NCBI RefSeq assembly: GCF_000013725.1
Contig: NC_007955.1
Location: forward strand, 2,139,579 to 2,203,578
DNA from: Methanococcoides burtonii DSM 6242
GTDB lineage: Archaea; Halobacteriota; Methanosarcinia; Methanosarcinales; Methanosarcinaceae
Reading direction: 5' to 3'
Length of the DNA: 64,000 nucleotides
Below the pieces are notes generated by a model, which made no database searches, was not told the DNA's origin, and was given only the letters and a program-made list of their open reading frames with translations. This document shows, one piece after another, positions 5,217-32,985 of this stretch. The translations under genes were made by a program, and so were the position numbers. Position 1 is the first letter of the stretch; each line of letters opens with the position of its first letter.

Positions 5217-6024
5217 TTTTCTAACTCCAACTAAGCCACTCATTTTTATAATAAGAAGTCCCCTGTGATTGTTCTCCAACTAAAACACAAGAGAATGAAT
5301 GTGTTTGTTCCAAATTATAAATCTGGAACTCCCATTAGATCTACGATTTAATAGCTTGTCTAACAAGTACTTAAAATTTATCGATATAGCATTACAAATA
5401 ACAAGATATTCACGCTTTCCACTTTATAGCTGTAGATATTCAAAACGAACTTACACACAAAATCAGCTATTGACACTGATTTTGTTTAAGGAATATTTAG
5501 GTGAAGATTATAGGGATTTTGTTGATTTCGTAGAACTTATGGATTCTGTCCAATCAAAGATTGAACTAAACAAGGTACCGCATTATACTACACTTCAAAA
5601 ATTTGTAACTCGTACATATTCTGTTGTTTTGGATTCGATCTTTAAAAGAACACTTGACCTATTTTATAAAAATAGAGACTCAATTGATATTACTGCAATT
5701 GATTCCACTGGGTTCACAAGTGGTTATTGTAGCAATTATTATTCCTGGCGAATTAAAAAGTGGAGGCGAAGTTATGTAAAGACCAGCATTTCGGTTGATG
5801 TTAGTAAATTTGTAATCACTGGTTACAAGATTTCTGGAAAACCAGTTCATGATGCAAAACATGCAAGTGCGACAAGAAGCTAAAACATGAATTGCGGCAA
5901 CGCTATCCCTTCCATTTGGGATAATCCTACTATGATATGCGTCAATGGTAACGTTGGGGTGTAAAGCTCATAGGACAATGTGGAGAAATTCGGAAGTCTA
6001 ATCTGAATCATCTGCTAGGATAAG

Positions 6025-6853
6025 GTGCGACAAGAAGTTATAACATGAATTGCGGCAACGCTATCCCTTCCATTTGGGTTAATCCTACTATGACACGCGC
6101 CAATGGTAACGTTGGGGTATGAAGCTCATAGGACAATGTGGAGAATCTCGAAAGTCTAATTCGAAACATCCACTAGGATAAGAACACTAAGAAGAAACGA
6201 AAGTTGAACCATTGTAAGAATCGTAAAGCAGAACAAGCGAAATTAGATTGATTACGCTTGAACCAAAAGGTACAGAATCCGACCATTATGGCTCTTATCA
6301 CATTATGGGAAATGGACACATGATTCTCGGTTTATAGATGGCTTCTAAGGTCTTCGCAATTATTCATGTTATAGAACTTGGTAAGCCCTATATGTTCCCT
6401 TCGGGGTAGGAATCCTGCAAAGAATGACGATGACATAGAGGGTAGAGGAAAGGAGTAGAAAGCGAATGACAAACTGTAATGGTGTGTATAAGGGTTCAAA
6501 ATTTGCCCTAATCCGAAAGGATGCAGACTTACTCTATGGTATCAAAACGTAAGAAGGAAGGTATGACCTATGAATGTAAGCTATTCAAATACATCAAAAG
6601 ATGAAGCAAAAACACTGTTTAGTGGACATGCTGAACTTAACGATGAGAAACTTACAGACATGTAACACATGTTAATAGGCTACAAGTCAGGATTACGAAG
6701 GCAGTTATTGAAGAAAATTGGAATTTGCAATTAATTCCAAAAACAATAACTGTTGCCTGAAAAGGTTATGAGATGCTTGAGCTGTATGAAAGAAAACTTT
6801 CACGTACAGTTCTTAGGCGAGAAAGAGGGAGTAATCCCTCTGACTTAGCCGAC
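6025..6853 (+). mobile_element. Inner group II intron copy, ORF-deleted, nested in the outer intron
   Basis: A second GTGCG start at 6025 begins a near copy of the outer intron 5' region (5867-6024), and GCCGAC at 6848-6853 repeats its 3' end. On each side the outer sequence is continuous: CTAGGATAAG before 6025 and AATACTAAG after 6853, matching uninterrupted CTAGGATAAGAACACTAAG within the inner copy. Its domain V survives near 6778-6810. Only the first codons of the reverse transcriptase remain (from about 6570), joined near 6730 to the sequence just after the ORF, so most of the gene is deleted. Confidence 0.85.
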
Positions 6854-7239
6854 AATACTAAGAAGAACGTAAAAGTGAACCATTGTAAGAATCGTGAATT
6901 GCAACAAGCGAAACTAGATTGATACGCTTGAACTAAAAAGGTATAGAATCAGACTATAATGGTTTTGCATACATTATAGGAAATGGACATATGATTCTCG
7001 GTTTATAGATGGCTTCTAAGGTATTCGCAATTATTCATGTTATAGAACTTGGTAAGCCCTATATGTTCCCTTCGGGGTAGGAATTCCGTAAGGAAGGACA
7101 ATGACATAGAGGGTAAAGGAAAGGAGTAGAAAGCGAATGATAATTTGTAATGAATTATATAGGGGTTCAGAATTTGCCCTAATCCGAAAGGATGCAGACT
7201 TACTCTATGGTATCAAAACGTATGAATGAAGGTATAACT

Positions 7240-8970
7240 ATGAATGTAAGAATTTCAAATACACCAAATAATGAAGCAGAAGCCCTTAGTGGTCATGCTG
7301 AATTAAATGGTGAGAAGCTTACAGATATGCTCAACTGGAATTTCATCAATTGGAGTTCCGTTGAATCACATGTTAATAGAATACAAGTCAGAATTACGAA
7401 AGCAGTTATTAACAAAAATTGGAATTTAGTAAAAAAACTAAGTTATTTGCTAACCCATTCTCACTATGCTAAACTGTTAGCTGTCAGAAAGGTTATTCGA
7501 AATAAGGGTAGAAGAACAGCAGGAATCGATGGAGAATTCTGGTCAACACCAGTTTCCAAAGTGAATGCGGCTCGAAGTCTATCTGATAAAAGATATAAGG
7601 CAAAACCATTAAAAAGAATCTTTATTGAGAAATATGGTTCTGATAAGAAGCGACCTTTAGGTATCCCGACCATGTACGATAGAGCTATGCAAGCATTATA
7701 TGCATTAGCACTTGACCCCATTGCAGAAGTAACAGCAGATAAACGTTCTTTTGGATTCAGAAAATTCAGAAGTACACATGATGCTTGCAGTCAAATTTTT
7801 GGAACAATAAGCAAAAAGGATTCTGCACAATGTATACTGGAAGGCGATATTAAAGGTTGTTTCGACAACATCAGTCACCAATGGTTAATTGACAATATCC
7901 CAATGGATAAATCAATTCTTAAACAATTCCTCAAAGCAGGATTTGTTTATGAAAATTCTCTATTTCCAACGAAAGCAGGAACACCACAAGGCGGTATTAT
8001 ATCACCAATATTAGCCAACATGACCTTAGATGGAATTGAAGGTGTATTGGCTGACAAATATCATCGAGGTGTAAGCGGTAAAATAACAACTCGTCAACGT
8101 GCAAAACACAAAGTTAATTTTGTGCGATACGCAGATGATTTTATTGTTACTGCAAAGACTAAAGAAATAGCAGAAGAAGCAAAAGAATTGATTAAGAATT
8201 TCCTAACGGATAGAGGTTTAGAACTATCTGATGAAAAAACCCTTATTACTCACATCGATGATGGTTTTGACTTTTTAGGTTGGAATGTCAGAAAATACAA
8301 AGGAAAACTTCTCATAAAACCGTCTAAGAAATCTATCAAGAAAGTAACTGAAAAAATCAGTAATACTATCAAAGATGGAAAAACTTGGACACAAGAAGAT
8401 TTAATCTCTAAACTTAACCCTATCATAACTGGATGGTCAAATTATCATCAAGGAGTGGCTTCCAAAGAAACATTCTCCTTAATTGATTTTAAGATATGGA
8501 ATATACTTTGGAAATGGGCTAAGAGAAGACACCCCATGAAATCAAGAACTTGGATTGCACACAAATACTGGCATCCCAAAGGAACGAGGAAATGGGTATT
8601 TTCAACAATGAAAAACCAACTTAAATTAATGTCAGATAAAATGATAGTTCGAAACCCACAAATAAAACTGGATAAGAACCCTTACACTGACACCGAATAC
8701 TTTGTTGAACGCAAGCTCAATCAAGGTTCTAAAAAGTTATTAGGAAAGTTTAAAACCGTATGGAAGAATCAAAAAGGCAAATGTCCGTTTTGTAATCTAT
8801 TGATTGACATTAACAACGGTGGAGAGGAACGCCCTTTACATCATAAAAATGGAAATCATGACGATAATGGAATAACAAACTTAGTTTATGCACATGTATA
8901 TTGTCATAGACAATATCATGCAAATAATCCAAAAATAACTGTTGCCCGACAAGGGTTAAGAGATGCTTGA
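7240..8970 (+). CDS. ltrA: Group II intron reverse transcriptase/maturase with HNH endonuclease
   Basis: The 576-residue multifunctional intron protein contains reverse transcriptase blocks with the active site FVRYADD, a maturase domain X (around FDFLGWNV and ITGWSNYHQG) and a C-terminal HNH domain (CPFC, LHHKNGNHDDNG, YCHRQYH). It assists splicing and carries out target-primed reverse transcription. All key motifs are intact. ATG at 7240 is preferred because the inner intron copy keeps this start while its upstream frame is broken; an in-frame ATG at 7192 would add 16 residues. The ORF ends inside the start of domain V. Confidence 0.95.
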   Translation: MNVRISNTPNNEAEALSGHAELNGEKLTDMLNWNFINWSSVESHVNRIQVRITKAVINKNWNLVKKLSYLLTHSHYAKLLAVRKVIRNKGRRTAGIDGEFWSTPVSKVNAARSLSDKRYKAKPLKRIFIEKYGSDKKRPLGIPTMYDRAMQALYALALDPIAEVTADKRSFGFRKFRSTHDACSQIFGTISKKDSAQCILEGDIKGCFDNISHQWLIDNIPMDKSILKQFLKAGFVYENSLFPTKAGTPQGGIISPILANMTLDGIEGVLADKYHRGVSGKITTRQRAKHKVNFVRYADDFIVTAKTKEIAEEAKELIKNFLTDRGLELSDEKTLITHIDDGFDFLGWNVRKYKGKLLIKPSKKSIKKVTEKISNTIKDGKTWTQEDLISKLNPIITGWSNYHQGVASKETFSLIDFKIWNILWKWAKRRHPMKSRTWIAHKYWHPKGTRKWVFSTMKNQLKLMSDKMIVRNPQIKLDKNPYTDTEYFVERKLNQGSKKLLGKFKTVWKNQKGKCPFCNLLIDINNGGEERPLHHKNGNHDDNGITNLVYAHVYCHRQYHANNPKITVARQGLRDA

Positions 8971-9002
8971 GCTGTGTGAGGTGAAAGTCTCACGCACGGT
9001 TC
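8969..9002 (+). ncRNA. Group II intron domain V of the outer intron
   Basis: This 34-nt hairpin has the catalytic AGC triad in GAGCTGTG, a GAAA tetraloop and the closing CGCACGGTTC strand. It is the most conserved part of the ribozyme and is intact. Confidence 0.85.
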
Positions 9003-9406
9003 TTAGGCGAGAAAGAGGGAGTAATCTCTCTGACTTAGCCGACAGACATTGCTATCGCAATGTCATCACAATAGGAGATCAAGATATTATATAATGGATA
9101 AAGCCTATGATTCTGAAAAATACACGAATTGACGAGGGAAAAACTTGGATCAATAGCAATTGTTCCATTGAGACAACGTGAATGAAAGCGAATCAAAGAA
9201 AGATATCGTAAGAAAATGTCACGGGAATTCGATAGCAAGATATACTCTATGCGGAATTTGAGTGAAACGATGTTCTCGGTTTTGAAAAGAAAGTATGGAG
9301 AAAACTTGCGTGCGAGAAAGTATAGAAATCAAGTAAAAGAAGTGAAGTTCAAAGTAATATTGCACAATCTTGACAGATTTGTCAAGACTGTGTTTTTAGT
9401 TTGGAT

Positions 9407-11426: not shown

Positions 11427-12857
11427 ATGGATAAATATGATGTTATTGTGGTCGGAGCCGGTGTGACCGGTCTTCTGGCTGCACTTACATTATCAAAGCA
11501 CGGCAAAAAAGTGCTGGTGCTTGAAAAACAGGATGTTGTGGGGGGAAATTGTAACAGTTACTCCGTGGATGGTTATCAGGTGGATACTGGTCCGCATGCC
11601 ATCACCCATCTTGCGGAAGGTCCGCTCAGACGACTTATGGACAATTATTTTGATTACCAGCCGGTATTCGAGAACTACGGACAGTATTATATAAGGACCG
11701 AGGAACGTTTCGTAAAAGTTCCCTCAACGATCAAAGAATTCGTCACATTTGACGTTTTTCCCAAACTTGACCGTCTTGCAATCACTCAGGCCATCACAAA
11801 GTCTCTCACAATGGCTTCCTTTGGCATCGATCTCTCAGACCAATCGGTCTATGATTCCCTTCCTGCAAATCTCTCAAAGGACACTTACGACTTCGCAAAT
11901 GCTATATCCTACTTCCTTTCCGGACGTTGTATGAAAGAGACATCTGCACAGAGGGTACTGGCAGGAAGCAGTTTTGTAAGGGATAGTGTGACCCAGGAAC
12001 AGTTCGAAGAGATTATCAAACAGGAATCCACTCCCCGAACCGAATCCATACTTCAGTCTGTCCTTCCATCCAATCTCCATCTCTCACTTCATTCAAGGAT
12101 AAACCTATCCTGCCTCGGAAGACTTGCTTCCAACAAGGTCAGTCTTTCACAGGGATATCCGCGAAAAGGTCTAAAATCCCTGCTCAATGCAATTCTTTAT
12201 TCTCTTCCTTCGACCGTGGAGATAAAGACCGGATGTGAAGTGCATAAGATATTCACTGATAAAGGAAAAGCATGGGGTGTCGAAGCGGACAATACCTACA
12301 GTGCTGATCTTGTTATATACACAGGATTTGCAACATCTCTCCCTTTTCTGGTCGAAGATCTTCCGGCATCTTATAAAGAGCAGCTTGATGGCATTGTTCA
12401 CTCTAAAAGTCTCACATTATGGCTTGGCCTTGACAGAATGATGGACGAGTTCAAATATGTAGGCTCAGAGATCTGGTTCAAGGGCACCCCTTACTGGGCG
12501 ATGCCAACAAGCAATTATGACCCTTCCCTTGCACCTAAAGGGAAGCAGCTAGTAGGTTTTGCTTTCTTCATGGATGAGGGCAATGATGAGTCCAGGGATA
12601 TAAAGAACGCCTATGAAACGATCTTCCGCGCAATTCCAAACATCGAGGATCGCATAGAAATGAAACATCAGCAGGTCATTATTCCTGAAAAGGCTGCAGT
12701 GACGCTCAACGGTAAATTTGCCGATATCCGCACTCCGGTAAAGGGTCTTTATGTTGCAGGGACGGATACCGATAAACGCAGCATGGGGGTTACCAGGGCT
12801 GCATATTCTATACTTGAAATGTTAAAAGTGTTGAACGAGGACGGTAATCTTCACTGA
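11427..12857 (+). CDS. FAD-dependent oxidoreductase, phytoene desaturase-like
   Basis: The 476-residue flavoprotein has the dinucleotide-binding motif VVGAGVTGLLAAL (residues 8-20), then GGNCNSY and the GYQVDTGPH segment typical of the CrtI/amine oxidase-like family, and a C-terminal FAD motif GLYVAGTDTD. In this family the substrates are usually isoprenoids, but desaturation or saturation and the substrate cannot be told from sequence. It starts directly after purC, and no carotenoid gene is nearby. Confidence 0.8.
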   Translation: MDKYDVIVVGAGVTGLLAALTLSKHGKKVLVLEKQDVVGGNCNSYSVDGYQVDTGPHAITHLAEGPLRRLMDNYFDYQPVFENYGQYYIRTEERFVKVPSTIKEFVTFDVFPKLDRLAITQAITKSLTMASFGIDLSDQSVYDSLPANLSKDTYDFANAISYFLSGRCMKETSAQRVLAGSSFVRDSVTQEQFEEIIKQESTPRTESILQSVLPSNLHLSLHSRINLSCLGRLASNKVSLSQGYPRKGLKSLLNAILYSLPSTVEIKTGCEVHKIFTDKGKAWGVEADNTYSADLVIYTGFATSLPFLVEDLPASYKEQLDGIVHSKSLTLWLGLDRMMDEFKYVGSEIWFKGTPYWAMPTSNYDPSLAPKGKQLVGFAFFMDEGNDESRDIKNAYETIFRAIPNIEDRIEMKHQQVIIPEKAAVTLNGKFADIRTPVKGLYVAGTDTDKRSMGVTRAAYSILEMLKVLNEDGNLH

Positions 12858-13544
12858 TCACCGTCTGATTATCATTGTTCTTAGCCTGTCGGCTGCATGT
12901 TCTGTCTTATCTGCAATGTCTGCAATAGTTCTGACAAGTTCGATAAGATAGAACACTCCGACAGCACCAAGTTCCTTTTCATGAGCATATATGTCTTTGA
13001 CAAGTTTTTTCTCTATAAGGTCTGTGATATGCTCCATCTCTTCTATCTGTGGAACAAGGGCCAAGGTCTCTTCGACATCTCGTTTGCTAAAAGATGTTTC
13101 AAGGAGTTCACTCAACGAATCTACCAGTTTTTCATATATTTCCACTGTTTTCAATGTCTCTGTACTTAGTTGACATAGCTGGTCCTTTATCCCCTCAGGC
13201 ATGTCACATTGTCTCAGGGAAAGCATATATGCAGCTTCCTGTGCCACATCAGCAATTGAGTCCTGTGGTTTTAAAAAGTTCAGTAGGTCCTCTGCGTTCA
13301 CAGGCAGCATTATCGACGATGAAAGCTGCCCTCTTATCGTCTGTTTGATAATATCCGCTTCATGTTCTATGTTGTCGATCTCATGGCTAAGTTCTTCAAC
13401 AAGGGGCATATTGATGCAATATGCATTGACTGCCTGATCGAGCTTTCTTACCGTCTCCACGCCCTTTGATGCGTGCAGGCAAAGTGGCTTAAAAGGTGAT
13501 TTCGCAAATACGTTTAGTACCGAACGAATGTATTCCCTTTTCAT
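12858..13544 (-). CDS. DUF47/PhoU-like accessory protein of Pit phosphate transporter
   Basis: This all-helical protein of about 228 residues belongs to the DUF47 family, distant relatives of PhoU, and contains the acidic EIDNIEHEAD motif that binds metals in PhoU-like folds. The gene's ATG (13544-13542) overlaps the TAA of the Pit gene by one base, so translation is probably coupled and the protein regulates or assists phosphate uptake. An upstream extension to 13619 is open but lies inside the pit gene and is not needed. Confidence 0.9.
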   Translation of the reverse strand: MKREYIRSVLNVFAKSPFKPLCLHASKGVETVRKLDQAVNAYCINMPLVEELSHEIDNIEHEADIIKQTIRGQLSSSIMLPVNAEDLLNFLKPQDSIADVAQEAAYMLSLRQCDMPEGIKDQLCQLSTETLKTVEIYEKLVDSLSELLETSFSKRDVEETLALVPQIEEMEHITDLIEKKLVKDIYAHEKELGAVGVFYLIELVRTIADIADKTEHAADRLRTMIIRR

Positions 13545-23441: not shown

Positions 23442-24365
23442 TCAGTGCTTTTTATTGGTGGCATTGAAGAACGCATCTTCTAATGATAGTGAATTTTCTA
23501 TCAGCTTGAAAACGTTTCCACCATTCTCAACAATTAACTTGTTAATCTCTGGTTTGACATCTCCTTTGGAATTAACAAATATTTCCAAAACATGTTCAGA
23601 TTTCAATTCAGTTTTAACTACAAACTCCAAACTCTCAATTAAATTTATTATTTTTGGAGCTAGGTTATAAAGCCCCACAGTAATAACGCCGTTGGATTCA
23701 AAATGACGAATTTCTTCAATTTTGTTCTCTGCAATTATTTTTCCTTTATCCAGTATTCCGACATGAGTACATATTTCTTGTATTTCTAGCAGATTATGAG
23801 ATGAAATGAATATTGTAATCCCGCTGTTGTTGCATTCGCAAAGTAGCTCCCTGATTTGTCGAATTCCAACCGGATCGAGTCCATTTGTAGGCTCATCTAG
23901 AATCAATATTTTGGGGTTATTCAAAAGAGCCTGAGCAATTCCAAGGCGCTTTTTCATACCATGGGAAAAATAAATCACCTGTTTGTGCTTTTCCTTTTCC
24001 AAGCCAACCTTTTCCAATAAAGCATTGGACTGCACCAAGGCCTCCTTTTTGCTTAAACCTTTTAATCTTCCATAATAGATCATATGACTTAATGCATTTC
24101 TATCATCATAAAAATTTGAATCCTGAGGGACTAAACCCATAATCTTTTTAATTTCCCTTGATTCACTATCCATATCCATACCATCTACAATTATCTTCCC
24201 ATCCGTAGGTGTCAAAAGACCGGATAATAATTTTATCGTAGTCGTTTTACCAGCACCATTCTTCCCTAAAAATCCATAGATACTCTCTTTTTCCACATTT
24301 AGAGAGATATTTTCCAAAACAAACTGAGACCCATATTTTTTATGTAGACCTCTTGTTGAGATAAT
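23442..24365 (-). CDS. ABC transporter ATP-binding protein (ABC-2 type exporter)
   Basis: The ATPase has Walker A FLGKNGAGKTTT, a signature YFSHGMKKRLGIAQALL, Walker B ILILDEPTNGLDP and the switch His in FISSHNLLEI. It powers the permease encoded just upstream. Family homology (STRGLHKKYGSQFVL) extends past the first usable start (TTG 24317) to 24365, where the codon is ATT, 10 bases behind GGAGGG that overlaps the end of the permease gene. Either ATT is used or the normal ATG has been lost. Confidence 0.88.
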   Translation of the reverse strand: MISTRGLHKKYGSQFVLENISLNVEKESIYGFLGKNGAGKTTTIKLLSGLLTPTDGKIIVDGMDMDSESREIKKIMGLVPQDSNFYDDRNALSHMIYYGRLKGLSKKEALVQSNALLEKVGLEKEKHKQVIYFSHGMKKRLGIAQALLNNPKILILDEPTNGLDPVGIRQIRELLCECNNSGITIFISSHNLLEIQEICTHVGILDKGKIIAENKIEEIRHFESNGVITVGLYNLAPKIINLIESLEFVVKTELKSEHVLEIFVNSKGDVKPEINKLIVENGGNVFKLIENSLSLEDAFFNATNKKH

Positions 24366-24373
24366 ATTAGAAA

Positions 24374-25123
24374 TTATAAATCCCTCCTTTTGAGAGCAGC
24401 TAAGCTCATTGATAAAAATGCTGTTGTGTATATTAACATTGCAAAAATACTTTTTAATACTTCAGTATATTCAATTTCATCAGGGAATCCGCTCAGAATT
24501 CCCATATTTTTAACCCCATAAAAATAAGGCGTGAGATATTTTAAATAATTGTCATCACCCTGAAGAAAAATGAAAACAAGGCTACCCAGAAATACAAACG
24601 CCATTGTCAACGAGGTTTTATTGTTTTTTGAAAGAGTTGAAACGAATATAAATATACTTATAAAGCATCCCAAATAAAGACTCGAAAATACCCACCACAT
24701 AATACTTTTTTCTAATTGGAGTCCATTACCTGAAAAATATATATATATCTGGCCTATAACTGCAACTACAAATGCAGCAGATGTAAATACAATGAACAAA
24801 GCAAAAAATTTGCCTAATATAAATGATGTGCGATCAATTTTTGAGATGATATATCTTATTGAACCGGTTTCCATTTCATTACTTATGGAATCAAAAGATG
24901 TTACCAGAATCATAAAAGGCCCAATAACTAACACTACAAAATAAAGAATAAGATGGTATGTAAGATTATTCATACTGTTTGGGAATAAAGATAGTATGGA
25001 TGCACTATAATGTATCGCCAAGAAACAAAGAAAGATAAAAGTTCCGCCAAAAAACAAATATTTGTTTTTTGAACCTCTTAATATCTCATCTTCTCCAACA
25101 ATCCGTGTTTTTGAAAAATCCAT
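24374..25123 (-). CDS. ABC-2 type permease
   Basis: This 249-residue membrane protein has six hydrophobic segments and the ABC-2 subfamily pattern SFDSISNEMETGSIRYIISK between helices 2 and 3. With the ATPase it should form an exporter, here probably for the peptide products of the island or for self-protection. The six-base gap to the gene before it and the close ATPase gene show one operon. Confidence 0.88.
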   Translation of the reverse strand: MDFSKTRIVGEDEILRGSKNKYLFFGGTFIFLCFLAIHYSASILSLFPNSMNNLTYHLILYFVVLVIGPFMILVTSFDSISNEMETGSIRYIISKIDRTSFILGKFFALFIVFTSAAFVVAVIGQIYIYFSGNGLQLEKSIMWWVFSSLYLGCFISIFIFVSTLSKNNKTSLTMAFVFLGSLVFIFLQGDDNYLKYLTPYFYGVKNMGILSGFPDEIEYTEVLKSIFAMLIYTTAFLSMSLAALKRRDL

Positions 25124-25129
25124 AACGTT

Positions 25130-25498
25130 TCAATCCTGCTTATCTGTTTTCATATTATATGTGACAAATGCACTAATTGATCCAATGATTGAATAGAAAA
25201 TAGTCATTATCAGTATGAAGCCAAGAAATACACCGGTAACTCCTCCACCATATCCAAGTATAGTCTTACCTTCGAGGGTAAATAGGAATGTTGTGACCCA
25301 TCCAATTAAATTGTATGTAAATATTGAAATAACTGCATATTTGACGGGAGTTTTGTCTGCTATTTTGCCAATGATTATGCCTACAAGTATCGCACCAACA
25401 ATTCCTCCATATGTTGGATCTATCTCTAAAAGACTAAAAATGCCGAATAATATCATCCCAAATAGTATTCCTGTTAACAATACTTTTTCAGTTTTCAT
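25130..25498 (-). CDS. Small glycine-rich membrane protein
   Basis: The 122-residue protein has four predicted membrane helices, the second rich in glycine zippers (GGIVGAILVGIIIG). GGAGCG lies upstream of ATG 25498. It resembles TIGR04086-like or other small integral membrane proteins of unknown role. It lies between the secreted helical protein and the ABC permease and could be an immunity protein for the secreted product. Confidence 0.6.
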   Translation of the reverse strand: MKTEKVLLTGILFGMILFGIFSLLEIDPTYGGIVGAILVGIIIGKIADKTPVKYAVISIFTYNLIGWVTTFLFTLEGKTILGYGGGVTGVFLGFILIMTIFYSIIGSISAFVTYNMKTDKQD

Positions 25499-25560: not shown

Positions 25561-26004
25561 TTAGGAATACTGATCTATGAAGTTTTGTGCTGCATTCAGT
25601 AAATCGACCAACTCGTTGTACAACCAACTGGCAATCTGCGAGCCCCAGTAATTTAATATTTGCCATATTATGGATACGGCTTCTGAAAGGTAATCCAAAC
25701 CGTTGGTTATATTGTCATTTCTGAATTCTTCAGCAGCATCAGTTAGTTTATCTTGAGCTTGGCCTATTCTATTGTCATCGATAACCTGATCTAAAGCCCA
25801 AAGTGCTGCAAGCAATCCGTCACAAATTGCTTCACCTGTAGTTCCTACTACTGATAGTGGTGTTATTTCACCGTCATCAGCCATTTTTAGTTCATTTACT
25901 ACATCTTGTGCTGGCTGTGCACTCACGGCCGGTGCAAACGCCATGCTCACCAGCAGCATTGCTGTTAGCAGCGCACCTATTCCAGATTTTATATTGATTT
26001 TCAT
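25561..26004 (-). CDS. Secreted helical protein, candidate bacteriocin precursor or partner
   Basis: The 147-residue protein has a clear Sec signal peptide (hydrophobic core AMLLVSMAFAPAVSA, probable cut after residue 29). A short acidic segment and a helical rest follow, ending in a strongly amphipathic, tryptophan-containing stretch (AVSIIWQILNYWGSQIASWL). It contains one cysteine. It heads the operon with the ABC exporter. Its promoter is built like that of the 12-cysteine precursor at 29099-29731, so both are probably expressed together. No family is recognised. Confidence 0.6.
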   Translation of the reverse strand: MKINIKSGIGALLTAMLLVSMAFAPAVSAQPAQDVVNELKMADDGEITPLSVVGTTGEAICDGLLAALWALDQVIDDNRIGQAQDKLTDAAEEFRNDNITNGLDYLSEAVSIIWQILNYWGSQIASWLYNELVDLLNAAQNFIDQYS

Positions 26005-26033
26005 TCTTTCTTTACCTCTTTGATTTATTTAAA

Positions 26034-26133
26034 CCAAAGGCAAAGCTATGTTTATATAGTGTAAACTGCAAACTTAACCTTACCTTTGGGTATACGTGGA
26101 GTTCTGGTTGGTTACCAATTATCTGAACTCCAC
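26034..26133 (-). promoter_or_regulatory. Promoter with two inverted repeats before the secreted helical protein
   Basis: CCAAAGGCAAAG (26034-26045) and CTTACCTTTGG (26079-26089) form an inverted repeat around a TATA-like stretch (near 26050-26058). Further upstream GTGGAGTTC (26096-26104) and GAACTCCAC (26125-26133) form a perfect second pair. The same arrangement occurs at 29757-29857. The sites look like operators for a shared regulator. Confidence 0.7.
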
Positions 26134-26615
26134 ATTCTAAATGATACATTATACTAGTTCTATTTATAATTGGTGACCGTGATTTGCGAATATAGACTTT
26201 TATTTTAGATAAAAGAAGTATTTATCATAATATCGAGTCAATTTATATGTTACTTGTATATAAATGGGCTATTTTCGATCATATGATTCCAAAATATAAA
26301 AATCACTCTCTATTTGATGGAACATCTATGATCGCGATTTGAGCTTCAAACGATTTCCCTCTCATACAAAGACCGTTTTTTCGGGAGCTGCAGCCAGCGG
26401 CCACATCATATTACAAATGCCGATCTATCCACATATTTTCGGCATTGGACCAACCCCGGGCAAACAGAAAAAATCAATTATGTGAATAGGCTATTTGTCC
26501 AGAGTGATAAATATGCAGGGATATGGAAGAAGTAACTTGTATAAGTCCATAGATTACCCACATAAAAAGTGAAGACGCAATGTTTTATACCATAGTTTGA
26601 TCTATTTCCTTCACC
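26134..26615. other. Intergenic region with a decayed copy of the small divergent ORF
   Basis: From about 26320 to 26540 the sequence resembles 30040-30255. One + strand frame keeps DLSFKRFPSHTK, then FSGAAASGHIILQMP, and ends GKQKKSIM before TGA at about 26479, as the intact copy does. It lacks a good start codon and has an upstream TGA. This copy is therefore probably broken, or uses a start I cannot see. The rest is AT-rich. Confidence 0.5.
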
Positions 26616-27593
26616 TCAGATCATAACCCATAAACCCAACAAAACAAGGGATATTCCACTGATTAATTTCAGGTATCTCTTGTGCTCACGAACATGTTTG
26701 GATAAAGTATAACCTCCAACCAACCCAATTCCAAGGAAAGGTGTCAATACTCCAAAACTAAAAGCAAACAATAGGGCTAAATCACCAATTGTCCCTTCTG
26801 TAAATGTTTTGTTCAGCAAAACCAGAAGCATAGGTACAGTGCACGGCACTTTTACCAGAGAGAACAAAACACCCAGGAAAAATAATCCTCCAATTGTACC
26901 GGCATGTTTTCTGGCCTTGTTCTGGAAATATTTGTCGAGGGACATCGGTAGACTGAAAAATCCCATCAGGTACAGTCCGATTCCAATAACTATGATTCCT
27001 GTAACTACAGAAAACAATTCCATGTCAGGGAGTGTCTTCCTGAATACAAGCAACCCCACTCCTATGGCGAGGTAGGAAGTCATCAATCCGACACCAAAGA
27101 CTATTGCTCGTTCCATGCCGCTGCGGGCAGACTCGCTGGTACCGGCTGTAAAACTCAAAAGAAATCCAAGTATTGCCATTAAACAAGGGGAGAATCCTGC
27201 AAACAAACCAAGTGAATAAGCAAACGGAAGATTCAGATCACTGTTTATGTACTGGTTTTCAGGTTTATTGTCCTTAAGATATTTCTCAATTGATAATCTC
27301 AGTTTTTCTTCAGTTATTTCTTCCTTTGGGATTTTAGTTTCATTATTTATGACAACAGCCGGAACCTCAATAAAACCATACTGATTCCACTGTTTGAATC
27401 CCTCAGTGTTTATGACATCAGTTCGCACAATTTCTACGTATTCATATTGTTTTTCGATTTGATCAATAATGGGCTCTGTTATCTCGCAGTCATGACAGCC
27501 GGTCTGGTGGAAATATTCTATCTGTATTGGTTGCGCAGCAGATATGGGGATGGACAGGAGAAGAATAGAAAAAAGAAGAAAAAAGAATCTCAT
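26616..27593 (-). CDS. Thioredoxin-like/CcdA fusion, DsbD-type thiol-disulfide oxidoreductase
   Basis: The 325-residue protein starts with a signal peptide (to about residue 20) and an exported thioredoxin-like domain with the redox pair CHDC (Cys33 and Cys36). It then has a CcdA/DsbD membrane domain of six helices with a conserved FSPCLMA and KVPCTVP cysteine pair. It moves reducing or oxidising equivalents across the membrane. In this operon it probably sets the disulfides of the 12-cysteine secreted protein. Its ATG overlaps the upstream stop (ATGA). Confidence 0.88.
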   Translation of the reverse strand: MRFFFLLFSILLLSIPISAAQPIQIEYFHQTGCHDCEITEPIIDQIEKQYEYVEIVRTDVINTEGFKQWNQYGFIEVPAVVINNETKIPKEEITEEKLRLSIEKYLKDNKPENQYINSDLNLPFAYSLGLFAGFSPCLMAILGFLLSFTAGTSESARSGMERAIVFGVGLMTSYLAIGVGLLVFRKTLPDMELFSVVTGIIVIGIGLYLMGFFSLPMSLDKYFQNKARKHAGTIGGLFFLGVLFSLVKVPCTVPMLLVLLNKTFTEGTIGDLALLFAFSFGVLTPFLGIGLVGGYTLSKHVREHKRYLKLISGISLVLLGLWVMI

Positions 27594-28765
27594 CCTTTTA
27601 TTCTCCTTAGTATTATGAGGATACCCAATGCTCCTACCAAAGGTGAAATACCGAGTGGTATTTGTTCAGATGCTGATTGAGAAGAGATGTCAATTGTCTC
27701 GATTGTATTTTTAAGATCCACTACTGCATTTGCTTGCTCTTTTGCAATCAAAGAATTACGTATGGAAGTGTCTGCAAGAGGTATGGAACTTGTTGAATCT
27801 TTTATTTTGGCTTCCTCTAACCTTATTTTTGCCATTTCAAAATGAAGTACCAATATAGGAGCATCAATTTCAGGATTACTAAAGAGTATGCTCAGAGATT
27901 CATTTGTATTTTCCATTTGTCTTTCAGCGCTACGTATGGCATCTTCGTGATCTACAACATTTTTATAGTTAATTCCAAAATCAGCCAGAGCTTTAGCTTC
28001 TGCTGCATTCATAGTTGCCAAATAGTATCTTTCTGCGGAATAGTGCTGCTTTGCAGTTTCCAATATCTTTTCGGAAGAGGTGAGTATATCTTTTCGGTTT
28101 CCCGAGTCACTAAATATCTTTATTTGTTCATCTGCAACCTGTATCCATTTGGAAGCGGTTTTATCTCCGTCTTCAGTTCTCTGGATGTGGTTTATTTTTG
28201 AAGACTCATTGTTCTTAAGTTTTGCAATATTTAACAAATTTTCTGCCTTATATATGGCGAAATTTGATTTAGTTAATGTTTCCAATGTACCATTGAAATT
28301 TTTATTATCATAATTCTCTTGAGAAATAGATAAATAATGTCTACTTTCTTCGAACTCATTCTCAGCAAGAGAAAGCCATTCCATTCCTGAAAAGCTTAAA
28401 TTATTTTCATTTAGACCTGCTAATTGTTCAACGATTTCATTATGTTTGTTCTCAATTTCATCAAACGTGTCATCAATAACGATTTTGGTTCCATGAATAG
28501 AGGCCATGTCATTCATGTCCATTTTCATAACAATTCTACGACATTTTAATGCTAAACTATAAGTGTAAAATGGATATTCTGTATTGTATTCATAAGACTG
28601 AGTATAAAATTCATTCAATGGTAAAGTCGAGTTGTTTTGATAATAAAATGATAATTCTGATATCTCTTTTGAAGATAAGTTGTAAAATACATTTTCTTCA
28701 GAAGCTGCCGGAACTATTAGCATAGTCGTAATTACAAATAAATAAAGCAGTTTGTTAATATTCAT
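27590..28765 (-). CDS. Secreted, C-terminally anchored helical protein
   Basis: The 391-residue protein has an N-terminal signal peptide (cut near AASEE, residue 22) and a long helical, charged body without cysteine pairs. It ends in a single hydrophobic helix followed by RRIKG, so it should be anchored outside the cell. No named sorting motif is clear. It lies between the small membrane protein and the oxidoreductase in the precursor operon. A chaperone, immunity or docking role is possible; the family is not recognised. Confidence 0.65.
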   Translation of the reverse strand: MNINKLLYLFVITTMLIVPAASEENVFYNLSSKEISELSFYYQNNSTLPLNEFYTQSYEYNTEYPFYTYSLALKCRRIVMKMDMNDMASIHGTKIVIDDTFDEIENKHNEIVEQLAGLNENNLSFSGMEWLSLAENEFEESRHYLSISQENYDNKNFNGTLETLTKSNFAIYKAENLLNIAKLKNNESSKINHIQRTEDGDKTASKWIQVADEQIKIFSDSGNRKDILTSSEKILETAKQHYSAERYYLATMNAAEAKALADFGINYKNVVDHEDAIRSAERQMENTNESLSILFSNPEIDAPILVLHFEMAKIRLEEAKIKDSTSSIPLADTSIRNSLIAKEQANAVVDLKNTIETIDISSQSASEQIPLGISPLVGALGILIILRRIKG

Positions 28766-28777
28766 AAAATCCCCTTT

Positions 28778-29065
28778 TTATTGGATAAAGTATGTTGCTA
28801 TAATTACACCCGAAATACCGCAAATAAGACATAATATTGCGAATAACACTGATTGGATTGCCGTCCATTTTCTTTCTCTCGCAACTAGGTAGAGATATAT
28901 ACCACTCAAAAACAGAATTGGTGAAAAAATCGATTCATACATTGATAATATCTCAAATTTTAAAAAAAAGTAGTCTAAGATTATTTTAAATATATCGATC
29001 AAAATTGTGGCGAACATAAAAAGTAGAAATAACTGTGAAGGTTTGTATTGTTTGTAGCCAATCAT
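28778..29065 (-). CDS. Small membrane protein next to the cysteine-rich precursor
   Basis: This 95-residue protein has three hydrophobic helices and a short basic loop (VARERKW). ATG 29065 follows a good GGAGG. It is the first gene after the cysteine-rich secreted protein, a usual place for a bacteriocin immunity protein. That function is inference only; the sequence shows no known domain. Confidence 0.6.
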   Translation of the reverse strand: MIGYKQYKPSQLFLLFMFATILIDIFKIILDYFFLKFEILSMYESIFSPILFLSGIYLYLVARERKWTAIQSVLFAILCLICGISGVIIATYFIQ

Positions 29066-29098
29066 TATCGTAATCCTCCGAAAAAGAAAAATGCTGTA

Positions 29099-29731
29099 TT
29101 AACATACAGCCTGGCAAATTGCATCACAGTAAACGGTTATGTCCATGTAACAAATCCCGAAGCATATAGCAACGCATGCTACATATCCAACACCAGTTGG
29201 ACCAAGGGCTAGACAAAGGTATGGACAGGATGCACCACATCCCATATTTCCCAAATCAGAGCATGTGTCTTCGCATTTTTCGTAACAGTCAATACTTTGC
29301 GTTGTTACCATCCCGGAAGCTGAATCATATACAGTTATTTCACCACTTTTAGATGTGGGATCTCCTGCAATATTTACAGATACTTCGTGCCCTTTATCTG
29401 AGACTAATGATACGTGGTATCCACCAACTACCATTGAAGAAGTTCCACTCCATACTTCTGTTATTTCATAATCTTTCGAGATGTCGTAAAGTTTAAACGA
29501 ACCAGCAGATTCTTGGTAATTGAATATAAATCCATCTGTGTCTGGATTATTTGAGATGGTATACTCTTCAGGTAGGCTTATTTCATCTGAGACTACCTTC
29601 AATACTTTCTTTTCATCTGACTTGTCTATGGGTTCTTGTGGTGCACATGCCATAGCGGGTGCTACTGCGAACATACTCACAACTAGCATTGCCATAAACA
29701 ACGCTGCCATTCTAATTCCTTTAGTTTTCAT
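29099..29731 (-). CDS. Secreted precursor with halocin C8-like cysteine-rich domain (candidate archaeocin)
   Basis: The 210-residue protein has a Sec signal peptide (cut near AMACA, residue 29), a beta-rich middle region (30-145) and a C-terminal domain of about 62 residues with 12 cysteines in the style of halocin C8 (starts CYEKCEDTC, contains MGCGASCPYLC and ends CQAVC). Halocin C8 is cut from a precursor whose N-terminal part gives immunity; the same split is plausible here. GGAGAG precedes ATG 29731. It heads an operon with a membrane protein, a secreted helper and a disulfide oxidoreductase. Antimicrobial action is untested. Confidence 0.7.
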   Translation of the reverse strand: MKTKGIRMAALFMAMLVVSMFAVAPAMACAPQEPIDKSDEKKVLKVVSDEISLPEEYTISNNPDTDGFIFNYQESAGSFKLYDISKDYEITEVWSGTSSMVVGGYHVSLVSDKGHEVSVNIAGDPTSKSGEITVYDSASGMVTTQSIDCYEKCEDTCSDLGNMGCGASCPYLCLALGPTGVGYVACVAICFGICYMDITVYCDAICQAVC

Positions 29732-29756
29732 ATCTTTTATCTCTCCAATTTAATTA

Positions 29757-29857
29757 CAAAGACAAAGCTATGTTTATGTAATATAAATGACAAATTAGCT
29801 TTGCCTTTGGGCTAATGTGGAGTTATGTTTGTTTAACGCACATCCGAGCTCCACATT
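29757..29857 (-). promoter_or_regulatory. Promoter with two inverted repeats before the cysteine-rich precursor
   Basis: CAAAGACAAAGCTA (29757-29770) and TAGCTTTGCCTTTG (29796-29809) flank a TATA-like stretch on the minus strand (near 29779-29790). AATGTGGAG (29814-29822) and CTCCACATT (29849-29857) form a perfect second inverted repeat upstream. Sequence, order and spacing match 26034-26133, so the same regulator probably binds both. Confidence 0.72.
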
Positions 29858-29998
29858 ATATATTACGTTACACTGAGTCTACTTATACCTTTGTGCCAGA
29901 TATTTTTAAATGTGTGCCTATTTTTTCGATAATAGATATTTAAATTGTAATATGTGATTAATTTAGTTATTATATGAATTTTAAGTTCATATTATTGT

Positions 29999-30199
29999 AT
30001 GGCAAATCTAACTATAAACAAAGTACTCGATTTAGTGAAAAACCAAAATGACCATTTGAGCGTCAAAAGATTTACCGCTCATGCAAATGCTGCTTTTTCG
30101 GGAGCTATGGGCGACGGTCGCATTATATTGGAAATGCCGCTTTTCTGCATATTTGGGGCACCATGTGACTTTGGCAAACAGAAAAAATCAATTATGTGA
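29999..30199 (+). CDS. Small divergent ORF, conserved in two copies
   Basis: This frame encodes 66 residues (MANLTINKVLDLV at the start, GKQKKSIM at the end) and is divergent from the cysteine-rich precursor. A second copy in the same relation to the other secreted protein keeps the frame over about 45 codons (FSG-A...IIL-MP...GKQKKSIM), with many differences at DNA level. That supports past coding function. There is no signal peptide, no helix of membrane length and no known domain. A ribosome-binding site is not evident. Confidence 0.45.
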   Translation: MANLTINKVLDLVKNQNDHLSVKRFTAHANAAFSGAMGDGRIILEMPLFCIFGAPCDFGKQKKSIM

Positions 30200-30547
30200 A
30201 TAGGCTATTTGTCCAGAGTGAAAAATGTGCAGGGATATGGAAGAAAAAATACGATTTTCTTACACATCTACAATTAAGTGAAAAACCTTGTAAATCTTCC
30301 TTTTTCTTTTCGGATCAACTCATTGCTTAGTTTAAACTATATTGGTCTCAACAAAATATAGTTAAAATTTTAGTTTTTTTAATTAGAATGTAGTAAACAT
30401 GAATAGATTGTTATTTTTCATCATTTAGTATGGAAAAATCTTAAATCACTTTCAGTTCTGACATAATTTTGAGGTGTTAGAATAACTCATAAAAATCCAT
30501 ACATATCAGTTCTAAAACTAAAAGGAAGTATTGTAGATATTTCAGTA
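30200..30547. other. Intergenic region before the UbiA gene
   Basis: The first 55 bases continue the repeat shared with 26480-26540 (AATAGGCTATTTGTCCAGAG). The rest is AT-rich without a gene. From 30482 a frame in register with the UbiA gene is open and looks like its N-terminus (NPYISVLKLKGSIVD), preceded by GAGGTG at 30471-30476, but it contains no ATG, GTG or TTG. Confidence 0.45.
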
Positions 30548-31312
30548 GTGGCAATAAATTGTGCCATATTGGGCATGTGGGATTACAGGGCTATTCTTGT
30601 AATTCTGACAGGAATGATGATTCACAGCGGTTGTGATATACTAAATGACATCTTTGATTTTGAAATTGACAAAATATGTAAACCCAATGGAGCTATTGCT
30701 TCCGGTCAGATGTCCATGAAAAAAGCATGGGGTTATATGATACTGCTGTTTTCAGTAGCACTTTTGATAGCCTTTAAATTAAGCCTGATCCTGTTCTTAT
30801 GTCTCTTAGCAGGGATCATTATTGGTGGGATAATGTACTCGCATCCGATGTTCCGGTTCAAGGACATCCCCGGTATTGCAATGCTGGATATGGCAGTTTG
30901 TTTTGCTTTGGAATCAATCGGCCTCTGGAGTGTTTATTCACCATTGACCCCGGATAGTTTAATGGTTGCAGCCTACATATTTGTGTTGATATTTTCCCTA
31001 ACGTTCATGAAGGATTTCAAGGATGTGGCCGGTGATATCAATTCGCTGCCCTTAAAAATTGGAATCCGCCGTGCAGCAATTGTCTGTAGCCTATTGGCAA
31101 TACTTCCATTGATACCTCTGTTATATGCGGTCACAAAGTATCATTATCTATCTCTGGCTGCACTGATCTATGTAGTACTGATTGCAGGCTGTACTCAAAT
31201 ACTACTGGATGATCCGGTAGCAAAAGGGAACAAGCTCAAAGACAGGATGATCATGGCATTGACCATACCCAACTTTATGGTGTTACTGGTAAAAATGTTA
31301 TCTATCTTCTGA
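30548..31312 (+). CDS. UbiA-family prenyltransferase
   Basis: This integral membrane protein (254 residues from GTG 30548) has about seven helices, the first aspartate-rich motif NDIFDFEID and a second DFKDVAGD. The family attaches prenyl chains to aromatic or lipid acceptors; here the substrate is unknown. Homology seems to extend upstream to 30482 without a normal start codon, so the N-terminus is either misplaced or damaged. It converges with the regulator gene, overlapping it by 15 bases. Confidence 0.82.
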   Translation: MAINCAILGMWDYRAILVILTGMMIHSGCDILNDIFDFEIDKICKPNGAIASGQMSMKKAWGYMILLFSVALLIAFKLSLILFLCLLAGIIIGGIMYSHPMFRFKDIPGIAMLDMAVCFALESIGLWSVYSPLTPDSLMVAAYIFVLIFSLTFMKDFKDVAGDINSLPLKIGIRRAAIVCSLLAILPLIPLLYAVTKYHYLSLAALIYVVLIAGCTQILLDDPVAKGNKLKDRMIMALTIPNFMVLLVKMLSIF

Positions 31313-31978
31313 TGGCAGACCCTGTAATTTATCCAGAGTATCGGAAGTTTCTTCCTTTTCCGGTATCTGGAAAAGTTCTTTTAGCTTTGCTACTGCATTC
31401 TTGTCAATGAAGAACTCATCTACAGTTTTATATTTGTTCAGGAGCAGGCTGATCTTTATGTCGGGGTACTTACTGACAAGATAATTTTTACAATAGACTG
31501 CAGCGTCCTGATCTGATGTTGCCCTTCCGCTTATTATCGCCATTGTTTTATCGCCAAAACAATGATAGACATTTTGCAGGATGACACATCCGGAAATAGT
31601 TGGAGTTACAACAATTTCCCCGGTGGTCGATGAATATTCATCAGCCATTATCACATGCTCTTTCTCGATCTCAAGCAATTGCTCCTCATCTTCAGCTTCT
31701 GCAAGTATGATGAATTCTGTTGCCAATCCTGCACGTTTCCAGTTAGGTACTATGGTATACCTGTCGATCAACCCTTCCTTTTGCATGTTGCGTGTATGAT
31801 ATGCAGCAGAGTTACCGTCTTTAAAATCCAGTATCTTTGCCAGCTCTGAATTGGTTATCTTGCTATTTTTCATCAACGTCAGCAGAATAAACATGTCAGT
31901 TTCATTCAGGTTTGAAACTTCAGATAACGTTTGAGCAATTCTTTTAATTCTTGTTTGATCAGTTTCATCCAGGTTCAT
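31298..31978 (-). CDS. Winged-helix transcription regulator
   Basis: The 226-residue protein has an N-terminal winged helix (MFILLTLMKNSKITNSELAK then AAYHTRNMQKEGLIDRY) and a longer C-terminal part without a known name. It resembles Lrp/MarR-like archaeal regulators. It is the only recognised DNA-binding protein inside the island and is therefore the first candidate to act on the paired inverted repeats upstream of the two secreted proteins. That link is inference. Confidence 0.75.
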   Translation of the reverse strand: MNLDETDQTRIKRIAQTLSEVSNLNETDMFILLTLMKNSKITNSELAKILDFKDGNSAAYHTRNMQKEGLIDRYTIVPNWKRAGLATEFIILAEAEDEEQLLEIEKEHVIMADEYSSTTGEIVVTPTISGCVILQNVYHCFGDKTMAIISGRATSDQDAAVYCKNYLVSKYPDIKISLLLNKYKTVDEFFIDKNAVAKLKELFQIPEKEETSDTLDKLQGLPSEDR

Positions 31979-32207: not shown

Positions 32208-32985
32208 GAAAATGCTTTAATTGATACTAAAATGGCAGCACAAGAAGCTAACCGTGTCAAATCTGAGTTCTTTGCAAACATGAGCCATGAACTAAGAACT
32301 CCTCTGAATTCTGTTATTGGTTTCTCCGATCTCCTTCTTGAAGGGACTTTTGGGGAACTGAACGCTAAGCAGGAAAAATATGCTATGAACATTCAGGAAA
32401 GTGGTACTCATCTTCTTAATATCGTCAATGAAATCCTTGATATATCCAAAGTAGAATCGGGAAATATGGATCTGAGCTATGAAAATGTCTCTGTCCTTGA
32501 AGTTATTGACAATGTTATGACTATGATATCTCCTCTGGCAAAGAAGAAGAATATCACCATTTCTCAGAATGTTGATCCGAACTCAATAAAAATTGTTGCC
32601 GATAGGGGCAAGGTCATCCAGATGCTTTAAATCTTGTAGGAAATGCGGTCAAGTTCACTCTGGATAATGGTTGTATCGATATTGGAACAAAAGTTACCGG
32701 AGAATATCTCGATATATTCATTCAGGACACTGGCGTAGGTATCTCAAAAGAGGATCTGGATAAATTATTCGATCCATTTGTACAGTTGGATTCGTCAGCA
32801 TCGAAAATGTATAAGGGTACAGGTCTTGGTCTCGTCAAAAAGTTTGCGGAATTGCATAGCGGTATGGTTCAGGTGGAAAGTTAGCTTGGAAAGGGCAGTA
32901 CTTTCACTTTCTTAATTCCTCTGGAAAATGAAGATTCTTTACCTGATATGGACCAAGATCCCGTCATTCATAAAAGAAGATGCTG
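32208..32985 (+). pseudogene. Histidine kinase, 5' truncated and frameshifted (right edge of island)
   Basis: Right after the MITE the coding sequence begins inside a kinase: AANRVKSEFFANMSHELRTP carries the phospho-accepting His of the HisKA domain. After a frameshift near 32629 (IQML then NLVGNAVKF) come the N and G boxes (DTGVGISKEDLDKLF, GTGLGLVKKF). TAG at 32882-32884 interrupts VES-LGKGSTF. The sensor part is lost at the MITE. It is a dead gene. Confidence 0.82.

Follow-up and report, generated by a model that had tools for sequence, protein, structure and literature searches.

The window analyzed here is a 64,000-nucleotide (nt) stretch of the single-contig genome of Methanococcoides burtonii DSM 6242 (2,575,032 bases). 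It contains two sites with paired inverted repeats, designated copy 1 and copy 2, each of which heads a secreted-protein gene encoded on the minus strand; both operons run on this strand. The sites very probably represent transcribed, structured 5′ leaders. The best overall explanation of the data is that each of them, as a leader RNA, gates the translation of the secreted-protein gene behind it, which we consider probable. As to the mechanism, we lean towards a translational switch in which the long hairpin of the leader, P2, gates the Shine–Dalgarno (SD) stretch.

Structure of the two leader elements

The leader RNA was about 125–135 nt in length and consisted of hairpin P1, the long hairpin P2, and a linker, ending at the SD; a small extra 5′ hairpin, P0, was present in many copies. 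Copy 2 (type I; 26011–26136, minus strand) headed the gene at 25561–26004 and scored 133.9 bits (E 5e-34) with the covariance model R1, while copy 1 (type I; 29736–29857, minus strand) headed the gene at 29099–29731 and scored 102 bits (E 6e-25), R1 having been built partly from both of these copies. The minimum free energies of the two leaders corresponded to z values of −6.3 (copy 2) and −4.0 (copy 1) relative to dinucleotide shuffles, and none of the 200 shuffles folded as well.

Hairpin P1 was read directly at 26096–26133 in copy 2 (GTGGAGTTC/GAACTCCAC) and at 29817–29854 in copy 1 (both on the minus strand), and it co-varied in relatives. In plus-strand letters, its arms were GTGGAG (26096–26101) and CTCCAC (26128–26133) in copy 2, and GTGGAG (29817–29822) and CTCCAC (29849–29854) in copy 1. 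Hairpin P2 with CAAAGGCAAAG-type arms occupied positions 26034–26089 in copy 2 (minus strand; 5′ strand 26075–26089, 3′ strand, or anti-SD, 26034–26048) and 29757–29810 in copy 1 (minus strand; 29796–29810 and 29757–29770, respectively). Folding and conserved pairs supported P2 in both copies, as did a sense-strand wobble bias in copy 2.

The original prediction had named these repeats, and their presence far beyond chance was confirmed by direct reading, by folding in comparison with shuffles, and by a reversed-pattern control: the paired GTGGAG/CTCCAC pattern occurred seven times genome-wide, four of these occurrences being members of the leader family with the same 38-nt span, and its reversed control pattern occurred 0 times.

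The similarity of the two window sites ran about 450 bp upstream, with 70% identity between them. This region beyond the leader, about 450 bp long, was duplicated at three loci with 70–95% identity (25950–26560 and 29690–30270 in the window, and G000:C1:1437154–1437606). A block of about 75 bp (26460–26535 and 30175–30245) was near-identical and was found in the two window copies only.

Evidence for a transcribed RNA

Further copies were found by DNA searches with the two upstream regions; they were alignable from P1 to the start codon. Three copies lacking TATATAA between the P2 arms still held self-complementary arms there, which suggested an RNA. Unguided RNAalifold on plain MAFFT alignments (30 type II sequences and 22 type I sequences) recovered both P1 and P2. 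In the type II alignment, 93% of cells were paired, and both sides had changed in 12 of the 19 pairs; double-change cells numbered 50 versus 15 ± 5.5 in shuffles (0 of 500 as high), and pairing fell to 47–55% when the partner was slid by one column. The compensatory base-pair changes expected of a cis-regulatory leader RNA were thus present.

Some features of the sites would also suit promoter operators, i.e., P1 and P2 acting as DNA palindromes bound by a dimeric transcription regulator, as had been originally proposed. The repeats are symmetrical, and in type I copies TATATAA lies between the P2 arms at a spacing compatible with a transcription start about 25 nt ahead of the gene. However, type II copies have no TATATAA at this place. 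A DNA palindrome is expected to depart from symmetry toward G·T and A·C equally; in P2, 80 G·U were counted versus 10 A·C over both types (27:2 in type II and 53:8 in type I), so that the arm symmetry without wobble bias expected of an operator was not found. P2 tolerates G·U and not A·C, unlike a DNA palindrome. In single-sequence folds, which are free of column choice, P2 was better as sense in 54 of the 56 nonredundant copies (p = 9e-11), and P1 was better folded as antisense in 40 of the 56 (p = 2e-5); P1 again preferred the antisense strand outside the class (12 of 14 copies, p = 0.002).

The position of predicted TATA boxes also differed from that required by operators. The TATA scan was blurred until the copies were split by the presence of P0 and was sharper thereafter: in many P0-bearing copies, the best TATA-like box was located 43–52 nt upstream of P1, and in most copies without P0, it was located 28–34 nt upstream of P1. 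Either way, the box precedes the first hairpin by about 30 nt; the placement is a tendency, several copies scoring their best TATA elsewhere. In copy 2, a TATA box (TTATAAAT) was predicted at 26163–26170 (minus strand), 34 nt upstream of the element start. In copy 1, a weaker, possible box (GGTATAAGTA) lies at 29880–29889 (minus strand), the scoring matrix favouring a site farther upstream. Transcription 5′ of the coding region, as expected of a cis-regulatory leader, was indicated by the TATA placement together with the start of one member, mapped upstream of P1 in a homologous leader by rapid amplification of cDNA ends (RACE) (PMC3510493).

Paired DNA operators with a dimeric regulator were rejected as the principal explanation because of the TATA placement, the RACE start, the G·U bias of P2, the fold asymmetry between the two hairpins, and the type II copies; we regard them as extremely improbable, and the sites are very probably transcribed leader RNA rather than promoter DNA. 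The proposal that one DNA-binding regulator times both operons was likewise left without support, as no evidence ties the winged-helix protein encoded at 31298–31978 to the sites.

Several points weigh against a transcribed RNA. The columns for the wobble count were picked by sense-strand RNAalifold, which somewhat favours G·U; the sequences are related, and the p values for strand preference and for the SD/anti-SD test given below are therefore optimistic; P2 had no significant strand preference outside the class; and the RACE-mapped start belongs to a homologous leader and to neither window copy.

Proposed pairing of the Shine–Dalgarno stretch

Four segments are relevant to the proposed switch: UGCC just before P2 (segment 1), GGCAA in the P2 5′ strand (segment 2), UUUGCCUC in the P2 3′ strand (segment 3), and the SD GAGGUAA (segment 4). 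In the ON state, segment 3 would be paired with segment 2, leaving the SD free. In the OFF state, segment 3 would be paired with the SD (3:4) and the P2 5′ strand would be folded back as UGCC-CNNA-GGCA (1:2), masking the SD.

The SD stretch of copy 2 (AAAGAGGTAAAG; 26010–26021, minus strand) was complementary to the P2 3′ strand, a pairing supported by the permutation test of SD against anti-SD. In copy 1, the SD stretch (ATTGGAGAGATAAA; 29736–29749, minus strand) and the anti-SD were both altered, GUCUUU of the P2 3′ strand having changed in step with AGAGAU of the SD, and this copy gave the largest single gain in the test. Among 49 nonredundant copies, the 3:4 duplex had −9.80 kcal/mol with the true partners versus −9.16 kcal/mol with swapped partners (p about 0.001). 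The permutation test thus revealed a co-varying alternative pairing of the SD, as expected of an SD-masking switch. Chance complementarity between SD and anti-SD was rejected, since control segments were without effect (P1 3′ arm, p = 0.69; P1 loop, p = 0.91; P2 apical part, p = 0.43).

In ensembles computed for 42 copies at 37 °C, the SD was mostly open in 26 copies and mostly closed in 7. As the ensembles hold both open and closed SD, both states appear reachable, with ON as the default. The leaders at loci L096, L039, L108, L080, and L029 were predicted to be almost wholly SD-masked, unlike most; this subset may be off by default.

The switch is also burdened by some of the results. Divided by type, the 3:4 signal had p = 0.005 in type II but p = 0.06 in type I. 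The 1:2 fold-back consists largely of conserved sequence, in which only two A:U replacements and four A·C mismatches occur. Moreover, the SD is open in most computed ensembles, and the OFF state would consequently need a trigger.

Temperature was considered as such a signal, i.e., an RNA thermometer in which cold tightens SD masking. The computed SD opening was 0.52 at 5 °C and increased to 0.76 at 55 °C, and long leaders with temperature-dependent start choice are known in methanogens (PMC5378194); however, such a rise is generic to any RNA, and in most copies the SD-freeing P2 is the stable state. Temperature sensing as the main role was rejected, the trend being a generic one, and we consider a thermometer very improbable.

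sRNA162 and the antisense strand

In a permissive Rfam scan, only sRNA162 (RF02792) was retrieved, on the strand opposite to a Methanosarcina leader copy. With its cut-off of 78 bits, sRNA162 had no match in the window on the antisense strand, and matches above the cut-off were confined to Methanosarcina loci. Among 18 fetched sRNA162 loci, 15 to 16 had a strong match to R2, a covariance model built from 30 nonredundant type II copies, the remainder having a weak match or none. At nearly all of the loci with a strong match, the leader was antisense to sRNA162 over 55 nt; by this overlap, sRNA162 of the Methanosarcina loci is antisense to a 5′ leader. It starts inside P2 and covers P1 of one leader copy.

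The mRNA start of MM2442, the target of sRNA162, was mapped by 5′-RLM (RNA ligase-mediated) RACE 184 nt before the annotated start codon (Jaeger et al. 2012, PMC3510493). sRNA162 overlaps the MM2442 leader with its first 65 nt, binding being demonstrated by gel shift and footprinting, and over-expression of sRNA162 led to a slight drop in MM2442 mRNA (PMC3510493). We placed the RACE start on locus L168, whose genome is taken to be M. mazei-like, at about position 1565 (minus strand), 10 nt upstream of the element at 1427–1555. A start about 10 nt upstream of P1 means that this leader copy is transcribed.

No ribosome-binding site was reported for MM2442 (PMC3510493), whereas in its homologue on L168 (1383–1425, minus strand) an SD (GAGGTGG) was found before an in-frame TTG, 14 codons upstream of the ATG. 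This ATG is 182 nt from the RACE start, within 2 nt of the published distance. From the sequence we infer that the TTG would be the true start of MM2442. Starting at the TTG gives the MM2442 homologue its full signal peptide back, and the published start is probably too far downstream.

sRNA162 and sRNA171 of Methanosarcina mazei (RF02792, PMC3510493) are thus antisense over the 5′ half of members of the leader family, and the target MM2442 is, like the genes of the window, a secreted-protein gene with a long structured leader. The family differs from this published case in extent: sRNA162 lies on the opposite strand of few copies, and PMC3510493 contains no description of the sense leader or of copies elsewhere.

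An antisense RNA started from a TATA-like box inside P2 would act as an input of the switch. Its hairpin would be P1, and its 5′ end would pair with segment 2, so that segment 3 would be released and could mask the SD. The start of sRNA162 falls at the complement of segment 2, and the first 11 nt of this RNA span segments 1 and 2 exactly. In copy 2, a TATA-like box was located inside P2 at 26050–26059 (plus strand) at a distance fitting a sRNA162-type antisense start, and its function is putative. In both leader types, the opposite strand carries a TATA-like box between −30 and −23 relative to the sRNA162-type start, although the sequences of the two types differ there. This box and the antisense fold bias of P1 in two clades suggest that the unit generally includes an antisense RNA. 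As a general input to the switch, however, the antisense RNA can be proposed only tentatively. The palindromic P2 could yield a TATA-like box on the opposite strand without any function; documented antisense RNAs are limited to sRNA162/171, the TATA-like box and the folding bias standing for them elsewhere; and the effect on MM2442 published for sRNA162 is a slight one, although its direction agrees with the model.

A more far-reaching model is more doubtful still, and we put it forward as a possibility: each leader would be a two-RNA unit, in which a sense SD-masking switch (P2) is worked by an antisense RNA, transcribed from the same DNA by way of a TATA box inside P2, through its P1 hairpin and 5′ end. 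Methanogens would govern their secretomes with dozens of such units, sRNA162 would be the only known case of a phylum-wide class, and the unit together with the signal peptide would be mobile as a cassette between unrelated secreted proteins.

Alternatively, the sense leader might act alone, as a riboswitch or protein-binding leader for a metabolite, an ion, or a second messenger, similarly to the GEMM riboswitches for cyclic di-GMP (c-di-GMP). In favour of this, the copies within a genome are many and head unrelated genes of a single broad class, type I has conserved unpaired segments such as GUUUACACUA, and the computed ensembles fall within the switching range. It is nevertheless unlikely: in two clades, P1 is better folded on the antisense strand; one copy is covered by sRNA162; and the riboswitch variant found no match in Rfam. 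With Rfam 15, no sense-strand match at the gathering score was obtained for the window and 25 other loci; known Rfam riboswitches, including that for c-di-GMP, and other known sense RNAs were rejected on this ground.

Distribution of the leader family

Model R1, whose seven training copies match by construction, retrieved 15 copies with E below 1e-4 from this genome, the other matches being independent of the model. R2 added three copies, bringing the number to about 18; these counts rest on genome searches, which may miss weak copies. R1 matched 60 of the 101 genomes of the family, and R2 matched 106 of the 238 genomes searched in the class, these matches spanning four families of the order. 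R2 also matched further families of the phylum outside the class, presumably Methanomicrobiales.

The original prediction of a set shared by two operons was therefore correct as to the sharing and understated as to its extent, the two sites being 2 of about 18 copies. Occurrence of the repeats at many unrelated places had been named as an argument against shared control; the places are indeed many, but nearly all of them precede secreted-protein genes, and shared control stands. The regulatory element proved to be conserved apart from the genes that it heads, as had been predicted, which implies common control.

A search of open-licence papers retrieved sRNA162 and surveys of leader length and no description of this leader family. 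The kind of element, a cis-regulatory leader with SD masking, is already known; what appears to be new is the leader family itself, its use across the archaeal secretome, and the antisense promoter built into it.

Genes downstream of the leaders

By a simple signal-peptide rule, an open reading frame (ORF) with a signal peptide followed 50 of the 53 nonredundant copies with an ORF; the three exceptions include two with truncated or frame-shifted signal peptides. As a background, signal peptides were found in 6 of the 61 ORFs of the window, two of these being the leader-headed genes. The products were otherwise mixed: mutually similar serine-protease-like proteins, a C39-like peptidase, a DUF6973 protein, and unknowns.

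Within this genome, five genes had 74–93% DNA identity over the first 87 coding nt and 23–38% over the next 87, and their mature parts were no more alike than shuffled sequence. One pair among the five crosses leader types; copying of the signal-peptide block from gene to gene thus seems to have taken place separately from the leader. The earlier statement that the coding regions served by the two sites are not alike is right as far as the mature proteins are concerned; there is weak similarity between the signal peptides.

Signal peptides behind 50 of 53 copies, and signal-peptide DNA conserved among otherwise unrelated genes, would also be expected if the leader were an export tag routing the mRNA to the membrane or coupling it to the signal recognition particle (SRP)/Sec machinery. 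However, the SD/anti-SD co-variation and the conserved end at the SD indicate control of initiation, and an export tag is improbable.

The first gene of operon 2 (25561–26004, minus strand) encodes a secreted protein of 147 amino acids (aa) of no known family; it is followed by genes of a small membrane protein, an ABC-2 permease, and an ABC ATPase (23442–25498, minus strand). Operon 1 begins with the gene of a secreted 210-aa protein with a Cys-rich C-terminal part (29099–29731, minus strand), and its remaining genes (26616–29065, minus strand) encode a small membrane protein, a secreted protein of unknown family, and a thioredoxin/DsbD-like membrane protein. The presence of the Cys-rich secreted protein (29099–29731) in the same operon as the thioredoxin/DsbD-like membrane protein (26616–27593) fits a disulfide-rich exported peptide. 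The 210-aa protein resembles halocin C8, but a halocin C8-like bacteriocin was rejected, NCBIfam and Pfam having given no such family.

Some other features were observed at the loci analyzed. A pteroate-synthase-like gene and its neighbour were duplicated in tandem, the second copy of the former being truncated, next to a leader-headed cluster of secreted genes (L022:2819–4662 and 12084–13306). At L025:6814–8027 (minus strand), a leader copy (60.9 kb) preceded a 60-aa ORF with a signal peptide beside a transporter frame, perhaps a decayed secreted gene. In the window, two sets of group II intron domains (Rfam RF02012, RF00029) were found at 5904–9043, and a histidine-kinase-like frame with in-frame stops, apparently a pseudogene, was found at 32232–32886.

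Comparison with known systems and significance

GEMM (c-di-GMP) riboswitches occur in many copies per bacterial genome before varied extracellular and surface genes. The leader family resembles them in its many copies and in a structured leader deciding expression; it differs in being archaeal, in having another structure and no Rfam match, and in the antisense RNA over a part of it. With translational riboswitches and attenuators that sequester the SD, it shares pairings that exclude each other, with the SD masked in one of them, but it heads a broad secretome and not one pathway. Leaders regulated by L7Ae through a kink-turn (PMC6298567) are likewise archaeal leader RNAs thought to control translation, whereas L7Ae autoregulates one gene.

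The natural leader-RNA switches known in archaea are few, and none serving a whole gene class was found reported in the open-licence papers. The family described here has many copies per genome and can be searched for with a model; a genetic system is already available in Methanosarcina, and a published antisense RNA would gain a context. In at least one annotated gene, an upstream start codon seems to have been missed. The family would open the control of the largely uncharacterised secretome of methanogens and methane oxidisers.

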